DNA of 64,000 nt from Chelativorans multitrophicus (GTDB taxonomy: Bacteria > Pseudomonadota > Alphaproteobacteria > Rhizobiales > Rhizobiaceae), in contig NZ_JAAAPL010000001.1 of the NCBI RefSeq assembly GCF_011317445.1, positions 1,550,001 through 1,614,000 of the forward strand, read 5' to 3'. The notes under the pieces were generated by a model, which was not told the DNA's origin, did no database searches, and was given only the letters and a program-made list of their open reading frames with translations. The position numbers were made by a program, and so were the translations under genes. Positions 5,831 to 30,302 of this stretch are shown piece by piece (within the stretch, counting starts at the first letter, position 1; every line of letters starts with the position of its first letter).

Positions 5831-7132
5831 ATGATCTGGTGCGCAATGAGGACAACGCTTGCGATACGCGTAATGGCGCTCATTCTCCTCATCGGCGTGC
5901 CCGCGCATGGTGCGGAGCTGCGTGGCCATGGCGGGCCGGTGCGGTCGATTGCCGTAACCCCCGATGGTGAAGCGGCGATCACCGGCAGCTTCGACACAAA
6001 GGCAATCGTCTGGTCGCTTGAGACTGGCGAAGCGCGTGAAGTGTTGCTGTTCCACGAAGGCCAGGTCAATGCCGTCGCCGTACTGCCAGATGGCCGCTTC
6101 GCCAGCGCCGGCGCGGATGGCCGAATTGCTATCTGGGAGAGCGGTCAAAGCGCGCCCGCTTCCGTCCTGGAGGGCCATACGGCGCCGGTCGCGGCGCTCG
6201 CCATCTCACCGGATGGCTCTGCGCTCGCCTCCGCTTCCTGGGACGCCAGCGTGCGCCTCTGGCCCCTTGCCGGCGGTGAACCGAAGATCCTCAAGGGGCA
6301 TCTTGGCAATGTGAACGCGGTCGCCTTCCTCTCGGATGGCACGCTGGTCAGCGCGGGTTATGACGCCGCCGTCATGCTGTGGCCGCGCCAAGGCGAGGAT
6401 GTTCCCATCCGGGTTGCCGTGCCGACTCCGCTCAGCACGCTTGCGGCAACCGCGGACGACCGCCTGTTCGCTGGAGGCGCGGATGGAAAGCTGTATGAGC
6501 TCGATCGCAGCGGCGATATCTTGGCGGAGGTCCGGGTTTCATCGAAACCGATAGTGGCCCTCGCCGCTTCAGCGAATGGAAGATATCTCGCGGCCGCCGG
6601 GGTCGACGATGCCATCGTGCTTCTCGACGCAAACGGCCTGAAATCCGTCCGCAGCCTCAGCGGGGCCGGAACGCCCGTATGGTCACTCGCCTTTTCATCC
6701 AGCGGCAAGAGGCTTCTGGCCGGTGGCGCAGACCATCTGGTGCGGGAGTGGGATGTCGAGACGGGGGAGCAGCTCGGGCCCGCAACAGAGGCCTCCGCCG
6801 ATCCGATGGCTGAATATGCCGGCAATCCAGATGCGCAGGTTTTCCGTGCCTGCGTTGCCTGCCACACGCTGGACCCTGACGACGGGAACCGTGCAGGCCC
6901 GACCTTGCACGGCATCTTCGGCCGCCGCATAGCGTCGGTGCCGGGCTATCACTACTCGCCTGCCTTCCGGGGAATGGACATTATCTGGACGCCGGAGACC
7001 GTATCGAGGCTGTTTGAGATCGGCCCCAGCGAATTCACGCCGGGCACCAAAATGCCCGAGCAGACAATCAGCGATCCAGAGGATCGGGCGGCGCTGATCC
7101 GCTTCCTGCAGGCTGAGACCCGCGACGACTGA
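5831..7132 (+). CDS. Exported seven-bladed WD40 propeller fused to a c-type cytochrome
   Basis: This 433-residue protein has a signal peptide (1-27, ending PAHG), seven WD40-type repeats (about 30-320; blades 1-4 and 7 keep GH or equivalent and the terminal W-D or W-x signatures), and a C-terminal class I cytochrome c. Haem attachment CVACH is at 341-345 and a probable axial Met lies in GTKMPE near 408. It is periplasmic. GGAG six bases ahead favours ATG 5831 over the upstream ATG at 5771. It ends 2 bases before the convergent ferredoxin-like gene of the formate dehydrogenase region, so a role in that electron chain is possible (inference). The partner protein bound by the propeller is unknown. 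Confidence 0.85.
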   Translation: MIWCAMRTTLAIRVMALILLIGVPAHGAELRGHGGPVRSIAVTPDGEAAITGSFDTKAIVWSLETGEAREVLLFHEGQVNAVAVLPDGRFASAGADGRIAIWESGQSAPASVLEGHTAPVAALAISPDGSALASASWDASVRLWPLAGGEPKILKGHLGNVNAVAFLSDGTLVSAGYDAAVMLWPRQGEDVPIRVAVPTPLSTLAATADDRLFAGGADGKLYELDRSGDILAEVRVSSKPIVALAASANGRYLAAAGVDDAIVLLDANGLKSVRSLSGAGTPVWSLAFSSSGKRLLAGGADHLVREWDVETGEQLGPATEASADPMAEYAGNPDAQVFRACVACHTLDPDDGNRAGPTLHGIFGRRIASVPGYHYSPAFRGMDIIWTPETVSRLFEIGPSEFTPGTKMPEQTISDPEDRAALIRFLQAETRDD

Positions 7133-21056: not shown

Positions 21057-21503
21057 TTACCTGCTTGAGCGGATTTTCAGGACCTCCTCCAGCCGGTCGA
21101 GCGCCTTAAAGAGGGACGAAGCCTCGGGCCCGAACGCTTCCAGAATAGCCGCTTCGAAGGCGACTGCGCGCGGTATGATTTCCCCATAAGCCGTTCGGCC
21201 AAGAGCAGTCAGTGACAGGATTTCCTCGCGACGGTCGTCAACGCTCCGGCGGCGCTTGAGCCAGCGCCGCTCCTCCAAGGCGCTTACAGCACGGCTGACC
21301 TTGGTCTTGTGCATGGAGGAGTGACGACCGATCGCCTTCGCGCCCATTTCTTCAAATTGACCCAGCGTCGCCAGCACGCGCCATTCCGGGACCGTCAGGT
21401 CATGATGCGGGCCATAAACAGCCCTGAATTCCTGCGAGACCACTGCCGCGATCCGGTTGAGACGGTAGGGCAGGAACTGTTCGAGATGAAGCTTGGCCAT
21501 CAT
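21057..21503 (-). CDS. MarR family regulator, divergent from hmgA
   Basis: This winged-helix repressor is 148 residues long if ATG 21503 is used; ATG 21500 is equally possible and no strong ribosome site distinguishes them. The HTH covers [52 protein letters not shown], and the wing contains [10 protein letters not shown]. It diverges from homogentisate dioxygenase across 55 bases containing repeated GTTACA/GTTGCAA motifs, so control of hmgA by an aromatic intermediate is likely (inference). Confidence 0.85.
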
Positions 21504-21510
21504 GTTGATA

Positions 21511-21539
21511 GTTACAAAAACGACAGTTACATTTGCAAC
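21511..21539. promoter_or_regulatory. Candidate MarR operator upstream of hmgA
   Basis: GTTACA occurs twice (21511-21516, 21526-21531), and GTTAC-ATTT-GCAAC (21526-21539) is a near-perfect inverted repeat. This lies between the two divergent start codons and is AT-rich relative to its surroundings, as expected of a shared promoter-operator. Confidence 0.5.
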
Positions 21540-21558
21540 AAAGTTAGGAGAACCCATC

Positions 21559-22917
21559 ATGAATGTCGAGAACCTATCTTTGCAGACTCAAAAAACCGAC
21601 CGGCCGGAGAGCGCTATCCAGCCAGGCTACATGTCAGGTTTCGGCAATGGTTTTGAGACCGAAGCCCTCCCCGGCGCGCTTCCCATCGGCCGCAACTCGC
21701 CGCAGAAGTGCTCATACGGCCTTTATGCGGAACAGCTCAGCGGATCGCCCTTCACCGCGCCGCGGACCACCAACGAGCGCTCCTGGCTCTACCGCATAAG
21801 GCCGACCGTGACGCATTGGGGCCAGTTCCAGAAGGCCGATATCGGGCTTTGGCGAACAGCGCCAGCGCAGGAGGTCGAGGTGCCGATCGCCCCGATGCGC
21901 TGGGACCCGATCCCGCTTCCCAGCGAAAAGGTATCATTCATAGATGGCGTGCGAACAATCACCACCGCCGGCGACGCGGGAACGCAGGCCGGCATGGGCG
22001 CGCATGTCTATCTCATCACCCGCTCGATGGTGGACGAATACTTCTACAATGCCGACGGCGAAATGCTGTTTGTGCCCCAAGAGGGCAGCCTGCGCATTTG
22101 CACCGAGTTCGGCATCATCGACATCGAGCCCGGTGAAATCGCGGTGATCCCCCGCGGCGTGAAGATCCGGGTGGAACTCACCGGCGGCCCCGCACGCGGC
22201 TATCTCTGCGAGAACTACGGCGGCGCCTTCACCCTGCCCGAGCGCGGCCCCATCGGCGCCAACTGCCTGGCCAACCCGCGCGATTTTCTGACACCCGTCG
22301 CAGCATACGAGGACAGGGACACGCCTTCCAGGATGTATGTGAAATGGGGCGGCTCTCTCTGGACAGCCGAGATGGACCACTCGCCCCTCGATGTCGTCGC
22401 GTGGCATGGCAATTATGCGCCCTACAAATACGACCTGCGGCGCTACTCGCCGGTGGGACCGATCCTGTACGACCATGCCGATCCGTCGATCTTCACCGTG
22501 CTCACCTCGCCCTCGGAAACACCCGGCACCGCCAATGTCGATTTCGTGATCTTCCCCGACCGTTGGCTTGTGACGGAAAACACCTTCCGGCCGCCGTGGT
22601 ACCACATGAACGTGATGAGCGAATTCATGGGGCTGATCTACGGCGTCTATGACGCGAAGACCGGCGGCGGCTTCGTTCCTGGCGGCATATCCCTCCACAA
22701 CACCATGCTGCCGCACGGACCCGACGTGGACGCCTTCGAAAAGGCAAGCAACGTCGAGTTGAAGCCACATAAGCTGGAGGGCACGCTGGCATTCATGTTC
22801 GAGACGCGGTTCCCGCAGAAGGTGACGGCCTTTGCCGCCCAAACAGAAGCGTTCCAAAAGGTCTATGGAGCTTACGGCCATAAGCTCAAGAAGCACTTCA
22901 ATCCGAACGAGCGATAG
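21559..22917 (+). CDS. hmgA: Homogentisate 1,2-dioxygenase
   Basis: This 452-residue Fe(II) ring-cleavage enzyme converts homogentisate to maleylacetoacetate in tyrosine and phenylalanine breakdown. Family landmarks are [19 protein letters not shown] (24-42), a central jelly-roll ([36 protein letters not shown]), and the iron-binding region [20 protein letters not shown]...[10 protein letters not shown], where the two His and Glu ligands sit. Length matches the family. TTAGGAGAACCCATC precedes ATG 21559; an upstream in-frame ATG lies inside the operator region. Maleylacetoacetate isomerase and fumarylacetoacetase are not in this window. Confidence 0.95.
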
Positions 22918-22993: not shown

Positions 22994-24658
22994 ATGGAAA
23001 GCTCGGATTCGATGCCGCGTGGCAACCTCTATGGCAAACCGGATCACATCGCTCTGGGTCACCAGGCCTATGAGCGAAAGGCCTGGTATGACGCTTACCG
23101 AAGGCTGTCGCGCGCGGGTGAGGCGGCGCCCCTCGACGTTGAAGACCTGGAGCGGCTGGCCGTGTCGGCTTACCTGGTCGGACGCGACGAGGATTACCTA
23201 CGGGTTTTGGAGCGGGTCCATCACGCCCATCTCGACAGCGGCAATCTGATCCGTGCCGCGCGCGCAGCCTTCTGGGTGGGGCTGCGCCTGGCCCTGCGTG
23301 GCGAGGCCGGTCCGGCGAGCGGGTGGTTCGGCCGTGCCCATCGGCTGCTCGAACGCGAAGGCAAGTCCTGCGTCGAGGAAGGGTATCTCTTGCTGCCGCT
23401 CGCGGAGCAGCAACTCGGTGCCAAAGCCGCTGACACCGCCCTCGGCACGGCGACCCGCGCTGCCGAGATCGCGGAGAAATTTGGGGAAGCCGATCTAGGA
23501 GCCTGCGCCCGTCATATGCAGGGCCGGATACTTATCCAGCAGGGTGAGGTGGAAAAGGGGCTCGCTCTGCTGGACGAAGCGATGGTGGCGGTCACTGCCG
23601 GAGAACTGTCGCCGATTATGACGGGCCTGATCTATTGCAGCGTCATCGATGCCTGTCAGCAGATTTATGCCGTGGATCGTGCGCGCCAATGGACGAACGC
23701 CCTGGCGCAGTGGTGCGCGGAGCAGCCGCAGCTTGTGAGCTTTACCGGCAGCTGCCTGGTTCATCGTGCCGAGATCATGCAGATGAACGGTTTTTGGCCC
23801 CAGGCGATAGAGGAAGCTCGCCGCGCATGCGCCGTTACGCGGGGGTCGGAACTGCCGCCACCGGGAACTGCCTATTATCAGCAGGCGGAAATTCACCGCC
23901 TGCGCGGCGAATTCGCGGAGGCCGAGAAGGCGTTCCGGCAGGCCAGCAGTCGCGGCTGTGAGCCGCTGCCCGGCCTTGCTTTGCTGCGGCTTGCCCAAAA
24001 GCGAACCGAAGCTGCGGCTGCGGCAATCAAGCGGGCCCTTGGAGCGACGGAGGATCGGCTGCTGCGCGCCAAGTTTCTACCGGCCTGCGTGGAGATCATG
24101 CTTGCAAGCGGCGATATTGCCTCGGCCGGCGAGGCATGCCGGGAGTTGGAGGAAAGCGCCGATCGTTTCCGGACTGTTGTCCTGCAGGCGATGGCCGGCC
24201 ATGCGGCCGGTGCCGTCGCCTTGTCTGCCGATGATCACCAAAACGCGTTGAAAGCCCTCAGGGCCGCATTTGAGCTTTGGCTCCAGGTCGAGGCGCCCTA
24301 TCCTGCCGCGCGCACGCGGGAGCTCATGGCATTGGCGTGCCGCGGCATGGGCGACGAGGAGGGCGCGAGCCTGGAACTCGCTGCGGCCCGCGAAGCGTTC
24401 CAGGCGTTGGGCGCTGCGCCGGATATGGCCAGGATCGATCGCTTGGCGCTTCCGCGCAACACGCGCAAGGGACTGACCCGGCGCGAACTTGAGGTGCTGC
24501 GGTTGGTTACGGCTGGCAAGCCGAACAAGGTGATCGCGGCCGAGTTGTTTCTAAGTGAGAAGACGATCGACCGGCATCTTAGCAACATCTTCGACAAGCT
24601 TGGTGTCTCCTCGCGAACGGCCGCTGCCGCCTGGGCGTTCCGCCAAGGGCTCGTTTGA
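22994..24658 (+). CDS. LuxR-type HTH regulator with TPR-like sensor region
   Basis: This 554-residue protein has residues of about 15-470 as repeated helical pairs of TPR type (for example SGNLIRAARAAFWVGLRLALRGEAGPASGWFGRAH). The C-terminal GerE/LuxR HTH spans about 491-552 (LTRRELEVLRLVTAGKPNKVIAAELFLSEKTIDRHLSNIFDKLGV). There is no receiver domain and no Walker A, so it is not a response regulator or a MalT-type ATPase. It immediately precedes the hydrolase-methyltransferase fusion and is probably its activator, perhaps through the palindrome at 24677. Confidence 0.85.
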   Translation: MESSDSMPRGNLYGKPDHIALGHQAYERKAWYDAYRRLSRAGEAAPLDVEDLERLAVSAYLVGRDEDYLRVLERVHHAHLDSGNLIRAARAAFWVGLRLALRGEAGPASGWFGRAHRLLEREGKSCVEEGYLLLPLAEQQLGAKAADTALGTATRAAEIAEKFGEADLGACARHMQGRILIQQGEVEKGLALLDEAMVAVTAGELSPIMTGLIYCSVIDACQQIYAVDRARQWTNALAQWCAEQPQLVSFTGSCLVHRAEIMQMNGFWPQAIEEARRACAVTRGSELPPPGTAYYQQAEIHRLRGEFAEAEKAFRQASSRGCEPLPGLALLRLAQKRTEAAAAAIKRALGATEDRLLRAKFLPACVEIMLASGDIASAGEACRELEESADRFRTVVLQAMAGHAAGAVALSADDHQNALKALRAAFELWLQVEAPYPAARTRELMALACRGMGDEEGASLELAAAREAFQALGAAPDMARIDRLALPRNTRKGLTRRELEVLRLVTAGKPNKVIAAELFLSEKTIDRHLSNIFDKLGVSSRTAAAAWAFRQGLV

Positions 24659-24676: not shown

Positions 24677-24692
24677 TGGGTGAAATCACCCA
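24677..24692. promoter_or_regulatory. 16-bp palindrome upstream of the fusion gene
   Basis: TGGGTGA-AA-TCACCCA is a perfect inverted repeat with 7-bp arms and a 2-base centre, 100 bases before the fusion-gene start. AAAGCGCTTT follows at 24694-24703. Size and placement suit a dimeric LuxR-type HTH, so the neighbouring regulator is the first candidate. Confidence 0.55.
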
Positions 24693-24791
24693 TAAAGCGC
24701 TTTGCGACAAATTGGGGAATCTTGCCGAAGCGGCGCGTAGACAACGGTCATAGGCTTTGCCGAGCCTCAACGCATGAGCTTGGAGGAAGCC

Positions 24792-26537
24792 ATGACCATT
24801 ACCGATACTGCAGCGGCCAAGCAGCCACCCAACACGCATGAACAAAAAGCGATGGCCGGCAGTGCCCGTGAGCTTCTGCTCTCCGGCTTGCCGGTCACGG
24901 AGCGTCGACTCCACCTAGCGGGCATTTCGACGGCCGTATTGGAAGGCGGAGACGGTCCGCCAATCATTCTCCTGCACGGTCCAGGCGAATATGCGGCCAA
25001 ATGGCTGCGGATCTTGCCCGAGCTGGTCAAGACGCATCGCGTGATCGCGCCCGATCTGCCCGGGCACGGCGCGACTGAAGCGGTTGGCCCGATCGATCGC
25101 GATCGCGTGCTGGCCTGGCTTGACGAACTGATCACACGGACATGCAAAACGCCGCCCATTCTTGTCGGCCAGATCATTGGCGGCGCGATCGCCCTACGCT
25201 TTGCCGCCGCGCATGGGGAGCGGCTGCGTGGCTTGATCCTCTCTGACACGCTCGGCTTGGCAAGCTTTCAGCCTGCGCCTGAATTCGCCGAGGCCCTTGC
25301 CGCGTTCGTGACGGAGCCGAGTCCGGAAAATCATGACAGACTTTGGCAGCGGTGCGCGTTCGATCTCGACGCATTGCGTGATGGAATGGGCCGGAGCTGG
25401 GATTATCTGCGCACGTATAATCTGGACCGGGCGCAGCTTGCGGATTTGAAGCCGACCCAGCAAAGCCTCTTCGAGCAGTTCGCGCTGCCAGCGACTCCCC
25501 AGGAGGAGTTGGAGCGCGTACAGATTCCGACCTTCCTGATCTGGGGACGGCATGATCTAGCAACCCCGCTGCAGATCGCCGAGGCGGCAAGCACCCGCTT
25601 CGGCTGGCCGCTCCATGTCATCGACGGTGCCGCCGACGATCCTCCGATAGAACAGCCGGCCGCATTCATGAAGGTGCTCCGCACCGTGCTGGCGGAGCGA
25701 ACCGTTATAGAATCCGCATCGATTGCGCGAGAGGCTTGGAACCGGATCGCGCCGGGATACGACCGGTACATCACGCCGTCTCATTTTTGGCTCGCCCAAG
25801 AGGGCCTTCGCCGCGCGGGGCTGCGCCCCGGCATGCGGTTCCTGGACGTGGCGGCAGGCAGTGGTGGCCTTTCAATTCCGGCAGCGCGCCTGGGGGCGGA
25901 TGTCGTGGCGACGGATATTTCGCCCGCGATGATCGAGAAGCTGCGCGCCCGCGCTGCCGGCGAAGGCCTCGCGATTGAAGCCCGCGTCATGGACGGACAC
26001 GCGCTCGAGCTGGCGGACGAAAGCTTCGATATGGCCGGTTCTCAGTTCGGTGTCATGCTGTTTCCCGACATGCCGAGGGGCATTCGGGAAATGGTTCGCG
26101 TGGTCAGGCCCGGCGGACGCGTTCTTCTCACCGCCTTCGGTGATCCGCGCAGGATCGATTTCCTCGCCTTCTTTATCGAAGCGATCAAGGCTGTCCGTCC
26201 CGCCTTTGCGGGACTTCCGGCGGACCCACCGCCCCTGCCCTTCCAGCTTCGCGACCCGGAACGGCTCCGCTTTGAGCTTGAGACCGCCGGGCTGCAGGAT
26301 GTTCGGGTCGAGTCGACCACCGAGCGCCTTGAATTCACGGCGGGCGAGCAGTTGTGGCAATGGCTGACGCAGAGCAACCCCATTCCCGGTGCCGTTTTGG
26401 CCGGGCTTGAGCTGAGCGAGGAGGAAAGAGGGAAGATCCGGCAGGCGCTCGATCGTCTTGTCGCGGCCCGCGCAAAGGCTGACGGCACGGCGGTGCTCAC
26501 CAGCCCCATCAACATTGGCATTGGGACCAAGCGTTAG
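24792..26537 (+). CDS. Degenerate alpha/beta-hydrolase domain fused to a class I SAM methyltransferase
   Basis: This 581-residue fusion has an alpha/beta-hydrolase fold at about 30-305 (ILLHGPG oxyanion loop at 59-65, APDLPGHG at 86-93). The nucleophile elbow reads GQIIGG, placing Ile128 where Ser, Asp or Cys is expected. The acid Asp255 survives in WGRHD, and the His position in the GAADDPPIEQP loop is Asp282. Ser and His are thus both lost, so hydrolysis is unlikely. Residues of about 310-520 are a Rossmann methyltransferase with FLDVAAGSGG (350-359), VVATDIS and FDMAGSQFGVMLFPD. ATG 24792 follows GGAGGAAGCC. The methyl acceptor is unknown. A scaffold or substrate-binding role for the first domain is inference. 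Confidence 0.85.
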   Translation: MTITDTAAAKQPPNTHEQKAMAGSARELLLSGLPVTERRLHLAGISTAVLEGGDGPPIILLHGPGEYAAKWLRILPELVKTHRVIAPDLPGHGATEAVGPIDRDRVLAWLDELITRTCKTPPILVGQIIGGAIALRFAAAHGERLRGLILSDTLGLASFQPAPEFAEALAAFVTEPSPENHDRLWQRCAFDLDALRDGMGRSWDYLRTYNLDRAQLADLKPTQQSLFEQFALPATPQEELERVQIPTFLIWGRHDLATPLQIAEAASTRFGWPLHVIDGAADDPPIEQPAAFMKVLRTVLAERTVIESASIAREAWNRIAPGYDRYITPSHFWLAQEGLRRAGLRPGMRFLDVAAGSGGLSIPAARLGADVVATDISPAMIEKLRARAAGEGLAIEARVMDGHALELADESFDMAGSQFGVMLFPDMPRGIREMVRVVRPGGRVLLTAFGDPRRIDFLAFFIEAIKAVRPAFAGLPADPPPLPFQLRDPERLRFELETAGLQDVRVESTTERLEFTAGEQLWQWLTQSNPIPGAVLAGLELSEEERGKIRQALDRLVAARAKADGTAVLTSPINIGIGTKR

Positions 26538-26613: not shown

Positions 26614-28053
26614 TCACGCGGCTCTCAACTCGGCGGTCGGACGCACATTCTGGTTCAAGCGGAACAGGTTTGTGGGATCGTAGCGCGCCTTGAGCTCCGC
26701 AAGCCTTTGATAGTTTGGGCCGTAAGCCGCCGCGACACGATCGGTTTCGTCCGCAGGCATGAAATTGATATAGGCCGTTCCGATGGCATAAGGCTTGGCG
26801 GCCTCGAACAGCCCGCGCGCCCAGTCGATGCAGGCCTGATCCATCTCCGGCTCGCGCCAGCGGGCATGCACATTCATGACATAATGCGAGCTGCGCTGCG
26901 GGAAGGACGTGGCTTCCGTCGCTATCCGGCCGGCGGCGCCGCCCACATGGCCGATGAAAACTTCGCATTCCGGCCCCGGCAGCCGCCGGATCGCTTCGAG
27001 AACGACGTCGATCGTCTCGTCGGAAAGCCCGCCGAAATCATGGCTCTTCCAGTAGTTGCGCGCGCCTGGGGTCAGCAAAGGATCGAACGCCTGCTGCCAG
27101 GCGGTAAAGGGTGTGGGAGCAACAACATCGGCAATAGGGCGGCCGATGGACCGCAGCCGGGCCGTCGCCTTCTCCCCCTCTGCGATGTCGCCGCAATAGC
27201 ACATCGCAAGGGCCAGAATTTCCTTACCGTGCCACTCTGCCGGCAGGAATGGAAGTGGAGGCGCCTGCCGCATTACCGCCCAGCAGGTCAGCTCGTCCGG
27301 TGCATCGTCGAGCGCTTCCCGGTACTGTTGAAGGACCGAGGCGGCGTTGTCGAACGGGTGAACGACAAGACCTGACAGAACCTGCGGCCCGAAATCGTGG
27401 AGCTGGAATTCAAATGCGGTGACAACACCGAAATTGCCGCCCCCGCCGCGGATGGCCCAGAACAGGTCCGGGTTTTCCGAAAGGCTGGTACGCAGAAGCT
27501 CGCCATTGGCGGTCACCACGTCTGCGGAGAGAAGATTGTCGAGCGTCAGGCCGAACTTGCGGGTGAGCCAGCCAAAGCCGCCGCCCAGCGTGAGGCCGGC
27601 GATGCCGGTCGTCGAATTGATGCCGCTGGGAACGACGAGGCCGAATGCCTGCGTTTCCTTGTCTACGTCGGCCAGCGTGGCCCCCGGTTCGACCCAGGCC
27701 CGCCGCAAAGCTGCGTCGACGCGGACGGATTTCATGGGCGACAAATCGATCAGGAGGCCGCCGTCGCAAACTGCATTGCCGGCGATGTTGTGGCCTCCAC
27801 CGCGCACCGCGACGAGCAGATTGTTCTCGCGCGCGAACCGCACCGCGCTCACCACATCAGCCGCCCCGGCGCAGCGTATGATAAGGCCGGGACGCCGGTC
27901 AATCATAGCGTTCCAGATCGTCCTCGGCTCTTCATAGCCGGCATCTGCGGGAGTGAGCGCAATGCCGCGCAGCTGGCTGGAAAGCGCCTCGATTATCGGT
28001 ACGCTGATGGTAGTCTGGCCTCCCTCGAGGGTGGTCAGGTTGAGATCGTTCAT
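26614..28053 (-). CDS. FAD-linked oxidoreductase of the berberine-bridge/PCMH type
   Basis: This 479-residue flavoenzyme has the FAD-binding PCMH domain at about 52-225. RGGGHNIAG (84-92) supplies His88 for covalent 8-alpha-histidyl attachment. The second, cysteinyl attachment position of bicovalent members is Asn146 here (GINSTTGIAG), so the flavin should be singly linked. The C-terminal BBE segment ends YDPTNLFRLNQNV. Family members oxidise sugars, alkaloids or aromatic alcohols; the substrate here is unknown. It is the last gene of a three-gene leftward operon, 23 bases after the methyltransferase. AAGGGAGGATAGACC precedes the ATG. Confidence 0.85.
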   Translation of the reverse strand: MNDLNLTTLEGGQTTISVPIIEALSSQLRGIALTPADAGYEEPRTIWNAMIDRRPGLIIRCAGAADVVSAVRFARENNLLVAVRGGGHNIAGNAVCDGGLLIDLSPMKSVRVDAALRRAWVEPGATLADVDKETQAFGLVVPSGINSTTGIAGLTLGGGFGWLTRKFGLTLDNLLSADVVTANGELLRTSLSENPDLFWAIRGGGGNFGVVTAFEFQLHDFGPQVLSGLVVHPFDNAASVLQQYREALDDAPDELTCWAVMRQAPPLPFLPAEWHGKEILALAMCYCGDIAEGEKATARLRSIGRPIADVVAPTPFTAWQQAFDPLLTPGARNYWKSHDFGGLSDETIDVVLEAIRRLPGPECEVFIGHVGGAAGRIATEATSFPQRSSHYVMNVHARWREPEMDQACIDWARGLFEAAKPYAIGTAYINFMPADETDRVAAAYGPNYQRLAELKARYDPTNLFRLNQNVRPTAELRAA

Positions 28054-28076
28054 GGTCTATCCTCCCTTTTCTGGAG

Positions 28077-28859
28077 CTAGTTCCTCCTGGTCATGGTCCA
28101 GCGAAATCGGTTGCTCCAGACGACAGATCCGTCCGGGCGTGTGACTGAAGGCAATGTGGCGCTGATGGCTTCCCTCACGCGAGCTTCGCCTACCTGCCGC
28201 GCCGCCTTGACGTTCACCCCGGCGGCAAGGTTCGCGCGGATAGCAGTTTCAGCGTCGGGGAAAACGAGGTCAGCGGCGAACTCCCCGGTTTCGACGGCCT
28301 GGAGCCCGGCTTTGTCCAGCGCGGCTTTGATCGTGCCCTCGTCTACGAGCGGGCCTGGCGCATTTCCGCCTGGCGGCGGCAAAAGGGCCATGACCGCAGA
28401 AACGGTGATCGTCATCAGCTGGCAGTCTTCACGCCGCCCCCAGGTGAGAATGAAAACCGTACCGTTGCGCCGGCAGACGCGGCGCGCCTCCGAGAGCGCT
28501 CGGGTAACGTCCGCGGCGAACTGAAACGCGTTTATGCCTGTAACGATTTCGAAGCTTTCATCGTTATAGGGAAGCTCCTCCATCTCGCCGACATCGATCC
28601 GGGCACCCGGCAAGCGCTGACGGGCGATAGCGACGAGATTCTCCGCGCCATCAAGCCCAGTGACCTCCGCGCCGAGCTTGCGCGCCACCACCAGCGCGCC
28701 TCCTGCGCCGCAGCCGACATCGAGCAGTTTCTTTCCCGGACCTGCGCCCGCATGTGCCATCGCAGCTTCGTAGATTCGCTGCCAAGCCGGCTCCTGCAAC
28801 TCTGCCCAATCACGAGCCTTCGCACCCCAGAGTTCGCCCTGAACCTGTGCCGTTCCCAT
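28077..28859 (-). CDS. Class I SAM-dependent methyltransferase
   Basis: This 260-residue cytoplasmic methyltransferase has motif I LLDVGCGAGGALV (45-57), an acidic motif II end VTGLDGAE, and motif IV GEMEELPYNDESFEIVTGINAFQF, the UbiE/Methyltransf_11 pattern for small-molecule acceptors. It is the middle gene of the operon with the ferredoxin-like-fold protein (66 bases upstream) and the FAD oxidase (23 bases downstream). It is not closely similar to the methyltransferase half of the facing fusion gene, so two distinct methylation steps are possible. Confidence 0.88.
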   Translation of the reverse strand: MGTAQVQGELWGAKARDWAELQEPAWQRIYEAAMAHAGAGPGKKLLDVGCGAGGALVVARKLGAEVTGLDGAENLVAIARQRLPGARIDVGEMEELPYNDESFEIVTGINAFQFAADVTRALSEARRVCRRNGTVFILTWGRREDCQLMTITVSAVMALLPPPGGNAPGPLVDEGTIKAALDKAGLQAVETGEFAADLVFPDAETAIRANLAAGVNVKAARQVGEARVREAISATLPSVTRPDGSVVWSNRFRWTMTRRN

Positions 28860-28925
28860 GCCGATCCCGCCAAAGTGAGAGATAAAGGACGGGCACCGGT
28901 GAGCACCGGCGCCCTCGCAGCGATA

Positions 28926-29264
28926 TCACTCGGCGGCAACCTTTGACCGCACGTCGATGCTCAAGGCGGCTTCGCCCGAAACGGGATCCGTAACTCCAAG
29001 CCCGCCTCCAAGGTCCTCCAAGATGTTCCGCATCTTGTCAAGCTCGCCGATCATCTCCTGCCTGCTTTGCACGATGCTGTCGAAACTGTCCCATTCGCCG
29101 ATAAAGCAGTAGGAATGCTCGTCGGTTTTGACGAGCGAAAATCGGCGTAAACCTGCCTTCCGCATCCGCTCCAGCTTTGCTGGATCAATCCGGCGATGCA
29201 ATTCGATGTACTCCTCATCGTGACCCGGTTTCACGCGCATCCTGACGATGTTAAAGGCAACCAT
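28926..29264 (-). CDS. Dimeric alpha/beta-barrel protein, antibiotic-biosynthesis-monooxygenase-like
   Basis: This 112-residue ferredoxin-like-fold protein contains MRVKPGHDEEYIELHRRIDPAKLERMRKAGLRRFSLVKTDEHSYCFIGEWDS, resembling ABM, EthD and mutarotase-type stress-response barrels. Such proteins act as cofactor-free monooxygenases or isomerases, or bind ligands. ATG 29264 follows GGAGGAACAAAG; longer in-frame starts run into the divergent promoter. First gene of the leftward operon with the methyltransferase and FAD oxidase, divergent from a LysR gene. Confidence 0.75.
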   Translation of the reverse strand: MVAFNIVRMRVKPGHDEEYIELHRRIDPAKLERMRKAGLRRFSLVKTDEHSYCFIGEWDSFDSIVQSRQEMIGELDKMRNILEDLGGGLGVTDPVSGEAALSIDVRSKVAAE

Positions 29265-29385
29265 CTTTGTTCCTCCGAACGCACCTGTGACGGACACAAT
29301 TTGAGCAAGGTGCGGTACAATCAAATGCAGCGGAGAGTTTACAGACGCGGACAAATGGCGAAAAATGCCAAGAATTCATCGCAAT

Positions 29386-29417: not shown

Positions 29418-30302
29418 ATGGAAATGCACGAAATACGGTATTTCCTCGCGGCCAGCCGCACGCTGAACTTTCATCGGGCCGCGGAGTTGGCGCATGTCAC
29501 ACAACCGGCTCTGACCCGGGCCATCCAAAAGCTTGAAGCAGAACTCGGCGGCCTGCTGTTTTACCGCGAACGCAACCACGTCCAGCTTACCGATTTCGGC
29601 TGCGTCATGCGAAGCCATCTGGAGGAGGTTGTCCGGCGATCGGAGGTAGCCAAGGAAACGGCGCGGGATTTCCTGAAACTGGAAGCGGCACTCCTGAAGC
29701 TTGGGGTCATGTGCACGATCGGCCCCTTACGTTTCGTGGGCTTCCTCAACGCCTTTCACCAGACCAATCCGAGCGTTGGCGTTACGGTCGTGGAAGGCGT
29801 GCCATCCCGCCTTGCCGCGCTTCTTCTCGAAGGTAAGCTGGACGTTGCGCTGATGGCGCAGCCGCAGCCTTTTGACGAGCGGCTACGGACAGAACCCATC
29901 TACGCGGAGCGCTTCGGGCTGGCTTTCTGCACCGGTCATCCCTTTGAAAAGCGCAATACGCTCCACCTGAGCGATGTTGAGTGCGCGCCTTACCTCGACC
30001 GCATCAATTGCGAATACAGCGACAATATCGGCGCGTTGTGCAGTGAGCGCGGCATTCGCATTACCGTCGCCTATCGAAGCGAGCGGGAAGACTGGATAAT
30101 GGCCATGGTGGCTGCCGGAATGGGTATCTGCTTCTCGCCCGAATTCTCCGCCTGCCTGCCGGGCGTGTGCCACCGCCCCGTTGCCGATCCGGAAATAGTG
30201 AGGAAGGTTTCGCTCGTCTCTGTCGCAGGGCGCGTTCCCTCACCCGCCGTGAAAGCCTTCCGGGAGGCAGTTTGCAACTACGACTGGACCCAGCCTAGAT
30301 GA
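29418..30302 (+). CDS. LysR family regulator
   Basis: This 294-residue protein has an N-terminal winged HTH (MHEIRYFLAASRTLNFHRAAELAHVTQPALTRAIQKLEAELGGLLFYRERNHVQLTDFG) and a C-terminal effector-binding domain. GGGAGAACTCCC lies ahead of the ATG. It diverges from the monooxygenase-like/methyltransferase/FAD-oxidase operon and is the likely regulator of it (context inference). The inducer is unknown. Confidence 0.88.
   Translation: MEMHEIRYFLAASRTLNFHRAAELAHVTQPALTRAIQKLEAELGGLLFYRERNHVQLTDFGCVMRSHLEEVVRRSEVAKETARDFLKLEAALLKLGVMCTIGPLRFVGFLNAFHQTNPSVGVTVVEGVPSRLAALLLEGKLDVALMAQPQPFDERLRTEPIYAERFGLAFCTGHPFEKRNTLHLSDVECAPYLDRINCEYSDNIGALCSERGIRITVAYRSEREDWIMAMVAAGMGICFSPEFSACLPGVCHRPVADPEIVRKVSLVSVAGRVPSPAVKAFREAVCNYDWTQPR

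Follow-up and report, generated by a model that had tools for sequence, protein, structure and literature searches.

The window analysed here, a stretch of 64,000 nucleotides from Chelativorans multitrophicus, holds a forward-strand gene in which an alpha/beta-hydrolase domain is joined in one frame to a class I SAM methyltransferase (MTase) domain (Table 1). The original prediction had proposed such a fusion of a pseudo-hydrolase and a methyltransferase, and translation, which runs through 581 residues without an internal stop, together with Pfam confirmed it. The frame opens with an ATG at 24792, directly 5' of which lies the ribosome-binding-site-like GGAGGAAG (24782-24789), and a longer form starting at the ATG of 24774 is also possible. 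Abhydrolase_1 matched residues 56-265 (3.8e-18) and Methyltransf_11 residues 351-445 (5.4e-20), with Ubie_methyltran also matching the C-terminal half. Membership of the alpha/beta-hydrolase fold superfamily is indicated by the Pfam profile and by the Foldseek fold match of the AlphaFold model, which among the best 50 matches reached a TM-score of up to 0.85 by target length; the phospholipase A 6i8w ranked first, and HsaD, CumD, CarC and BphD were among those behind it. In the other half, the profile identifies the SAM-binding domain of class I SAM-dependent methyltransferases, methyl transfer itself being predicted from the sequence, and DVAAGSGG resembles what is presumably SAM motif I. Among the best 25 of 54 NCBIfam families, none reached its cut-off on this half. 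The resemblance to UbiE/COQ5-like class I SAM methyltransferases lies in the Methyltransf_11 and Ubie_methyltran matches, and the difference in the fusion to a pseudo-hydrolase. The model of the fusion had a pLDDT of 85 overall and a pTM of 0.59, with the hydrolase half well predicted and the methyltransferase half less certain; the interdomain stretch 309-326 has a pLDDT below 50, and the model does not fix the arrangement of the domains. Within its own genome the fusion has one full-length match, whereas 10 others cover only a portion of one half, with 24-34% identity. A further alpha/beta-hydrolase-like stretch of this genome (G000:C1:1646528-1647301) contains an internal TGA.

Table 1. Features of the locus, with positions counted in the window
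Feature	Position	Strand	Basis or remark
TPR-LuxR (GerE) transcriptional regulator, 554 aa, constant bacterial neighbour	22994..24658	+	Pfam, locus comparison
Operator-like box 1, TGGGTGAAATCACCCA, palindromic	24677..24692	+	promoter comparison
Operator-like box 2, TTGGGGAATCTTGCCGAAGCG	24712..24732	+	starts 35 bases after box 1
Possible -10 element, CATAGGCTT	24749..24757	+	by eye
Fusion gene, triad-less alpha/beta-hydrolase and class I SAM methyltransferase	24792..26537	+	581 aa
Alpha/beta-hydrolase domain, about residues 36-300	24897..25691	+	Pfam, PDB alignments; AlphaFold pLDDT mostly above 90
Codon ATC, Ile128 at the nucleophile-Ser position	25173..25175	+	PDB alignments and family column
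Asp255, retained triad acid (WGRHD)	25554..25556	+	Asp in 31/32 members and 58/59 outgroup rows
Codon GAC, Asp282 at the catalytic-His position	25635..25637	+	PDB alignments and family column
Class I SAM methyltransferase domain, about residues 305-581	25704..26534	+	Pfam
BBE-type FAD-linked oxidase, convergent neighbour	26614..28053	-	Pfam, identity

Directly upstream of the regulator gene lies hmgA (21493-22917, forward strand), which encodes homogentisate 1,2-dioxygenase of aromatic degradation and gives no more than a hint of the molecule handled at this locus. On the other side of the fusion, the reverse strand carries three consecutive genes (26614-29354), for the FAD oxidase, for a further SAM methyltransferase and for a protein with an ABM domain; they diverge from a LysR gene located at 29418.

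The PDB alignments (among those listed, 1j1i, 2d0d and 1iun) identify GQIIGG as the nucleophile elbow, with Ile128 in the place of Ser, and set the first Asp of AADDPP, Asp282, at the position of the catalytic His. Both codons had been named beforehand with these assignments, and both were found as described. As for the claim that two of the three triad residues are gone, it also held, the acid Asp255 being kept. To place these changes, 32 members from different loci, including that of the window, were aligned with 59 outgroup hydrolases of the same scan, leaving out one truncated member (L099) and one fragment (L041). In the Ser column the members have I (12), L (12), V (4), A (2), M (1) or G (1) and never Ser (0/32), which is present in 59/59 outgroup hydrolases; in the His column they have D (31) or G (1) and never His (0/32), against 56/59 outgroup rows, the remaining three being gaps (56/56 of the aligned rows). 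A haloarchaeal member found later, beyond the 32 (L170), reads GHLLGG and AGDDP and is without Ser or His too. The family therefore lacks the Ser nucleophile in GxSxG and the catalytic His of serine hydrolases with the alpha/beta-hydrolase fold, and retains their acid residue. The closest known enzymes are the meta-cleavage-product C-C hydrolases CarC, CumD, BphD and HsaD, which give the best PDB sequence matches and, among the best 50, many of the top fold matches; they share the fold, the HG of the oxyanion loop and the acid Asp with the family, which differs from them by the absence of the triad Ser and His in 32/32 members and by its fusions to a methyltransferase or a FAD oxidase.

The members were found in Proteobacteria, Actinomycetota, a Gemmatimonadota MAG and haloarchaea. 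At E 1e-40 or better and with the own genome counted, 4/16 genomes of the same genus and 5/247 of the same family had a match, and in an order-level draw, in which three candidates per genome were scored, the own genome was the one match among 397; the multi-genome searches in general scored few candidates per genome. A profile scan of the contigs of named species genomes, which rested on two peptide patterns, gave at least 20 loci at 51-76% identity and then matches at 24-44%. The exception among these weaker matches was L041, a contig-edge fragment with 71% identity over 51 residues, which is probably a further family member; being without a usable ORF it was left out of the family, yet it is one of the 60 outgroup loci in the regulator comparison below. 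Sinorhizobium meliloti LMB1 and haloarchaea came in addition from plasmid records. Among 298 genomes around a Pseudonocardia, five had a match, four of them new, and L155-L158 came from this search alone, having been missed by the pattern scan. Among 381 genomes of the class of one haloarchaeon, four had a match, two of these being apparently the plasmid matches already found. In viral contigs there were 29 pattern matches, none of which was a family relative. The family is thus larger than the sampled set, and the host labels of several members may be wrong because their contigs are metagenome-assembled.

In a maximum-likelihood tree of the 32 members and 30 outgroups, the family forms one clade with a support of 100/100 on a long stem, with the caveat that L036, which adjoins it, was flagged as a long branch. 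The 11 Rhizobiales fusions constitute one clade inside the family (100/99), and on this tree the Rhizobiales hydrolase-MTase fusion is a single later event. Since the fusion clade is nested inside a clade in which all members are triad-less, the loss of Ser and His is older than the fusion; judged from the aligned proteins, triad loss is a trait of an old and widespread family and not a local event. A set of conserved residues distinguishes the family from the outgroup: Cys118, Cys188 and Trp272 are present in 32/32 members and 0/59 outgroup rows, Asp282 and Asp283 in 31/32 members and in no outgroup row, Tyr209 and Arg253 in 32/32 members against 1 and 5 outgroup rows, respectively, and Asp191 in 32/32 members, 55/59 outgroup rows being gapped there. 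By the Nei-Gojobori method, dN/dS of the hydrolase part in six pairs was 0.21 (L017/L022), 0.22 (L017/L021), 0.14 (window/L013, with a high dS), 0.54 (L019/L020, with few changes), 0.14 (L033/L035) and 0.37 (L157/L158), and that of the methyltransferase part in four fused pairs was 0.17-0.27.

Decay of the hydrolase half is rejected on the family-wide conservation and the dN/dS values. The view of the original prediction that the protein was repurposed under selection is supported by the clade-wide loss of Ser and His, by dN/dS of 0.14-0.54 and by the invariant new positions, and the contrary case that it had named, the same fusion with an intact triad, was seen in none of the 11 hydrolase-MTase fusions. 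Damage does occur in some relatives, the hydrolase being truncated in L099 and frame-broken in L171, and L124 carrying a methyltransferase remnant without hydrolase. The first two cases would agree with relaxed selection on a degenerate hydrolase that is carried by its fusion partner, an explanation which is nevertheless strongly disfavoured, given the one old clade, the invariant residues, dN/dS below 1 and the existence of unfused copies.

A different explanation of the same residues is that the altered pocket has become a new active site, formed by Asp282/Asp283, Arg253, the retained His62 and Asp255, which could carry out a non-hydrolytic reaction such as that of a lyase, an isomerase or a cyclase, while the fused enzymes perform another step. 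The constraint measured by dN/dS would be expected of such a site, as would the appearance of new invariant polar residues in the loops that formerly bore the triad. However, this invariance fits specific ligand binding equally well, and no metal- or cofactor-binding motif was identified. We hold a new active site to be possible rather than probable.

The enzyme to which the pseudo-hydrolase is coupled varies. Among the 32 members, 11 are hydrolase-MTase fusions, one is an MTase-hydrolase fusion (L147) and one a hydrolase-FAD oxidase fusion (L030); a methyltransferase is encoded by an adjacent gene in 5/32 (L011, L029, L031, L096, L097) and a FAD enzyme in another 5/32 (L023, L024, L026, L032, L034), so that a FAD enzyme, either a BBE-type FAD oxidase or a FAD-binding_3 enzyme, is fused or adjacent in 6/32. 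Neither enzyme is fused or adjacent in 9/32 members (L025, L027, L028, L033, L035, L155-L158), a count that is uncertain, chiefly for L025, L027 and L028, because the genes next to the relatives were predicted with a codon-usage script of our own. Since these nine members are without either enzyme, neither the methyltransferase nor the FAD enzyme is obligatory. The methyltransferase as an obligatory partner was also considered by itself, and is ruled out by the same nine members and by the 6/32 that have a FAD enzyme instead. It had been suggested that the domain binds or positions the substrate for the attached methyltransferase; a binding role is retained in the reading that we prefer, but the tie to this particular enzyme is supported only in part, because the loss of the triad predates the fusion, the partners vary, and the one partner common to all bacterial loci is a TPR-LuxR regulator, which the original prediction had not named. 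The nine loci without an adjacent enzyme also speak against a pure enzyme helper and keep the rival explanations alive, among them the new active site, as in these members the domain may act alone.

Several further observations concern the partner enzymes. The reverse-order fusion (L147:4977-6695) has a methyltransferase that is only about 31% identical, and its genome (G647) holds both this fusion and the hydrolase-FAD oxidase fusion L030. L031 is an actinobacterial MAG in which a small methyltransferase (6154-6762) follows the pseudo-hydrolase, as in the haloarchaeal L096 (9776-10390); the two are 63% identical, as is the L031 enzyme to one in L100. The FAD oxidase of the window shares 40-43% identity with those encoded next to, or fused with, five other members and 48% with another that lies farther on in the region of L147, from which we infer that it belongs to the system.

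In haloarchaea, the methyltransferase gene precedes the hydrolase gene and a different kind of regulator stands upstream. By Pfam, that of L096 is of the HVO_A0261/FilR1 type, with 80-81% identical ones in L170 and L171, and the upstream gene of L097 and L099-L101 is annotated merely as a transcriptional regulator. An intact hydrolase is present in L096, L097 and L170 and a broken one in L099 and L171, and none was found in the locus DNA examined of L100 and L101; another annotated hydrolase lies further on in L100, without a match to the family. The methyltransferase is present in all seven loci (L096, L097, L099-L101, L170, L171), and since it persists without an intact pseudo-hydrolase in L099, L100, L101 and L171, the hydrolase is not strictly needed by it.

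A related TPR-LuxR gene was nearby in 30/30 bacterial member loci examined, namely the 20/20 of the scan, L010, L011, L013, L098, L147, L155-L158 and the window, against 0/60 outgroup hydrolase loci, for which a mean of 12.9 kb of DNA each was available and one of which, L041, has its upstream side missing. The regulator mostly lies directly upstream of the pseudo-hydrolase. It is divergent in L027, and in L013, L016, L017 and L019-L022 its distance upstream reaches 1.7 kb, in most cases with one or two intervening genes. One of these encodes a probable membrane protein without a Pfam match (L017:6393-7085), and similar ones were seen by eye between regulator and fusion in the Rhizobiales loci L013, L016, L019 and L020. 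The regulator frame is split in L016 and L136, and the match is interrupted in L029. In the own genome the regulator has one full-length match. Its Pfam matches are TPR and GerE only, an ATPase (NOD) domain being absent, and its AlphaFold model (pLDDT 91) consists of helices throughout and carries an HTH at its C terminus; TPR proteins account for many of its best PDB fold matches, and no LuxR regulator was among the best 50. Hydrolase and regulator distances are correlated over 29 loci (rho 0.90, 0/2000 permutations as high), and in the 12 loci with a fused or paired related methyltransferase, rho was 0.78 for hydrolase and regulator and 0.44 for hydrolase and methyltransferase. As far as sequence distances can tell, such a correlation shows shared history and not contact.

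This linkage raises the question of a signalling partner, that is, a pseudo-hydrolase that binds a ligand and thereupon binds or releases the TPR-LuxR protein, by analogy with Aes and MalT in E. coli or with GID1 in plants. That the regulator is the only constant bacterial neighbour (30/30), that its distances follow those of the hydrolase, and that L033, L035 and L155-L158 have regulator and pseudo-hydrolase without an adjacent methyltransferase or FAD enzyme would all agree with it. The likeness to MalT-Aes consists in the pairing of an esterase-type protein with a LuxR regulator whose TPR region resembles that of MalT; Aes belongs to a different hydrolase family, and the regulator here differs from MalT in having TPR and HTH only, without the ATPase domain. 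Aes is described as having acetyl esterase activity and as inhibiting MalT through direct interaction, its site of action being that very ATPase domain (PMC10427625). The distance correlation would also be expected if the genes simply move as a unit. Four loci (L124-L127) have, in the DNA examined, TPR-LuxR proteins of at least 55% identity and no pseudo-hydrolase, and in the haloarchaea the TPR-LuxR gene, when searched in L170 and L171, was not found, L096 having its different kind of regulator. A signalling partner is considered rather unlikely.

Other regulators of this group also stand beside similar enzymes. Among the four without pseudo-hydrolase, the methyltransferase of L124 is a remnant, and L125 and L126 carry another methyltransferase; more distant regulators adjoin methyltransferases (L128, L129, L132) or flavin enzymes (L130-L133). 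The regulators of L028 and L124 have an N-terminal nucleotide-cyclase domain, and in L124 the genes after the regulator are a SnoaL-like one, two of the FAD-binding_3 type and the methyltransferase remnant.

In most loci, TGGGTGRAATCACCCA is found 3' of the regulator stop and, further on, TTGGGTGGTTCGCCCGAAGCG or a variant of it. These boxes were scored in 29 pseudo-hydrolase loci, with L029, L096 and L097 outside the set, against 200 dinucleotide shuffles each. The best match to box 2 was equalled in at most 0.5% of the shuffles in 22/29 loci and was poor in L027, L032, L147 and L155-L158 (7/29), the match statistics of the Rhizobiales being partly circular because the consensus was derived from the Rhizobiales loci themselves. 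The distance between the starts of the best matches to the two boxes is 33-36 bases in 19/29 loci and 25 bases in L026 and L034. The four related regulators without pseudo-hydrolase (L124-L127) are likewise followed by boxes. As to a wider regulon in the own genome, the exact pattern of box 1 occurs at the window site only; with up to two mismatches there were eight forward sites and two reverse sites that overlap some of them, whereas the control with the pattern reversed gave 0. Conserved boxes follow the regulator gene, and therefore the pseudo-hydrolase or its operon is likely a target of the TPR-LuxR regulator at these putative sites.

What the comparisons show directly is the loss of the triad throughout the family, the constraint on the domain, its physical linkage with the regulator gene, the exchange of fused enzymes and the conservation of the promoter boxes. 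Taken together, we favour the reading, with a probability of about one half, that the pseudo-hydrolase binds a ligand without hydrolysing it, as one module of a small-molecule modification cassette under local regulation. The neighbouring TPR-LuxR regulator would most likely turn on a dedicated promoter before the fusion gene, the pocket of the pseudo-hydrolase would capture a small molecule, and the attached or neighbouring enzyme, here the SAM methyltransferase and elsewhere a FAD enzyme, would modify it, here presumably by methylation. The regulator would act at the boxes, and the biological role may be detoxification or tailoring. Against this reading stand the nine members without a fused or adjacent enzyme, the four haloarchaeal loci in which the methyltransferase persists without an intact pseudo-hydrolase, the hydrolase distances, which in the 12 loci appear to track the regulator better than the methyltransferase, and the boxes, which by their scores seem weak or missing in 7/29 loci. 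Even so, we prefer a binding module to new chemistry, and both to a signalling partner. A broader proposal, in which the family is a ligand-gated hub that unites signal capture, the TPR-LuxR regulator with its two-box promoter and a plug-in enzyme acting on the same molecule, with the Asp-Asp/Arg residues as the new centre, is doubtful.

In the titles and abstract openings of the open-licence papers that our searches listed, neither this family nor its plug-in fusions nor its link to TPR-LuxR regulators was found. NDRG proteins have a non-enzymatic role and, to our knowledge, are animal proteins without such an operon, and we know of no methyltransferase fusion of GID1, DAD2/D14 or KAI2. Non-catalytic members of the alpha/beta-hydrolase fold are already known. 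NDRG proteins have this fold (PMC7022630), and GID1, DAD2/D14 and KAI2 are small-molecule receptors built on it; of these, GID1 has no catalytic role and is considered to have lost its His with the Ser kept, and DAD2 keeps both the active-site Ser and His (PMC3531792). The family described here is without both.

The members of L096 and L097 are annotated simply as alpha/beta hydrolases, in contrast with 0/32 members having the nucleophile or the base. If the domain is indeed a binding module, the family would be a clean natural case in which an enzyme fold has become an exchangeable substrate-capturing part, the modularity of which is shown by the occurrence of both fusion orders. At the same time, this group of TPR-LuxR regulators gains a promoter as its candidate target and a candidate partner that would bind a ligand.
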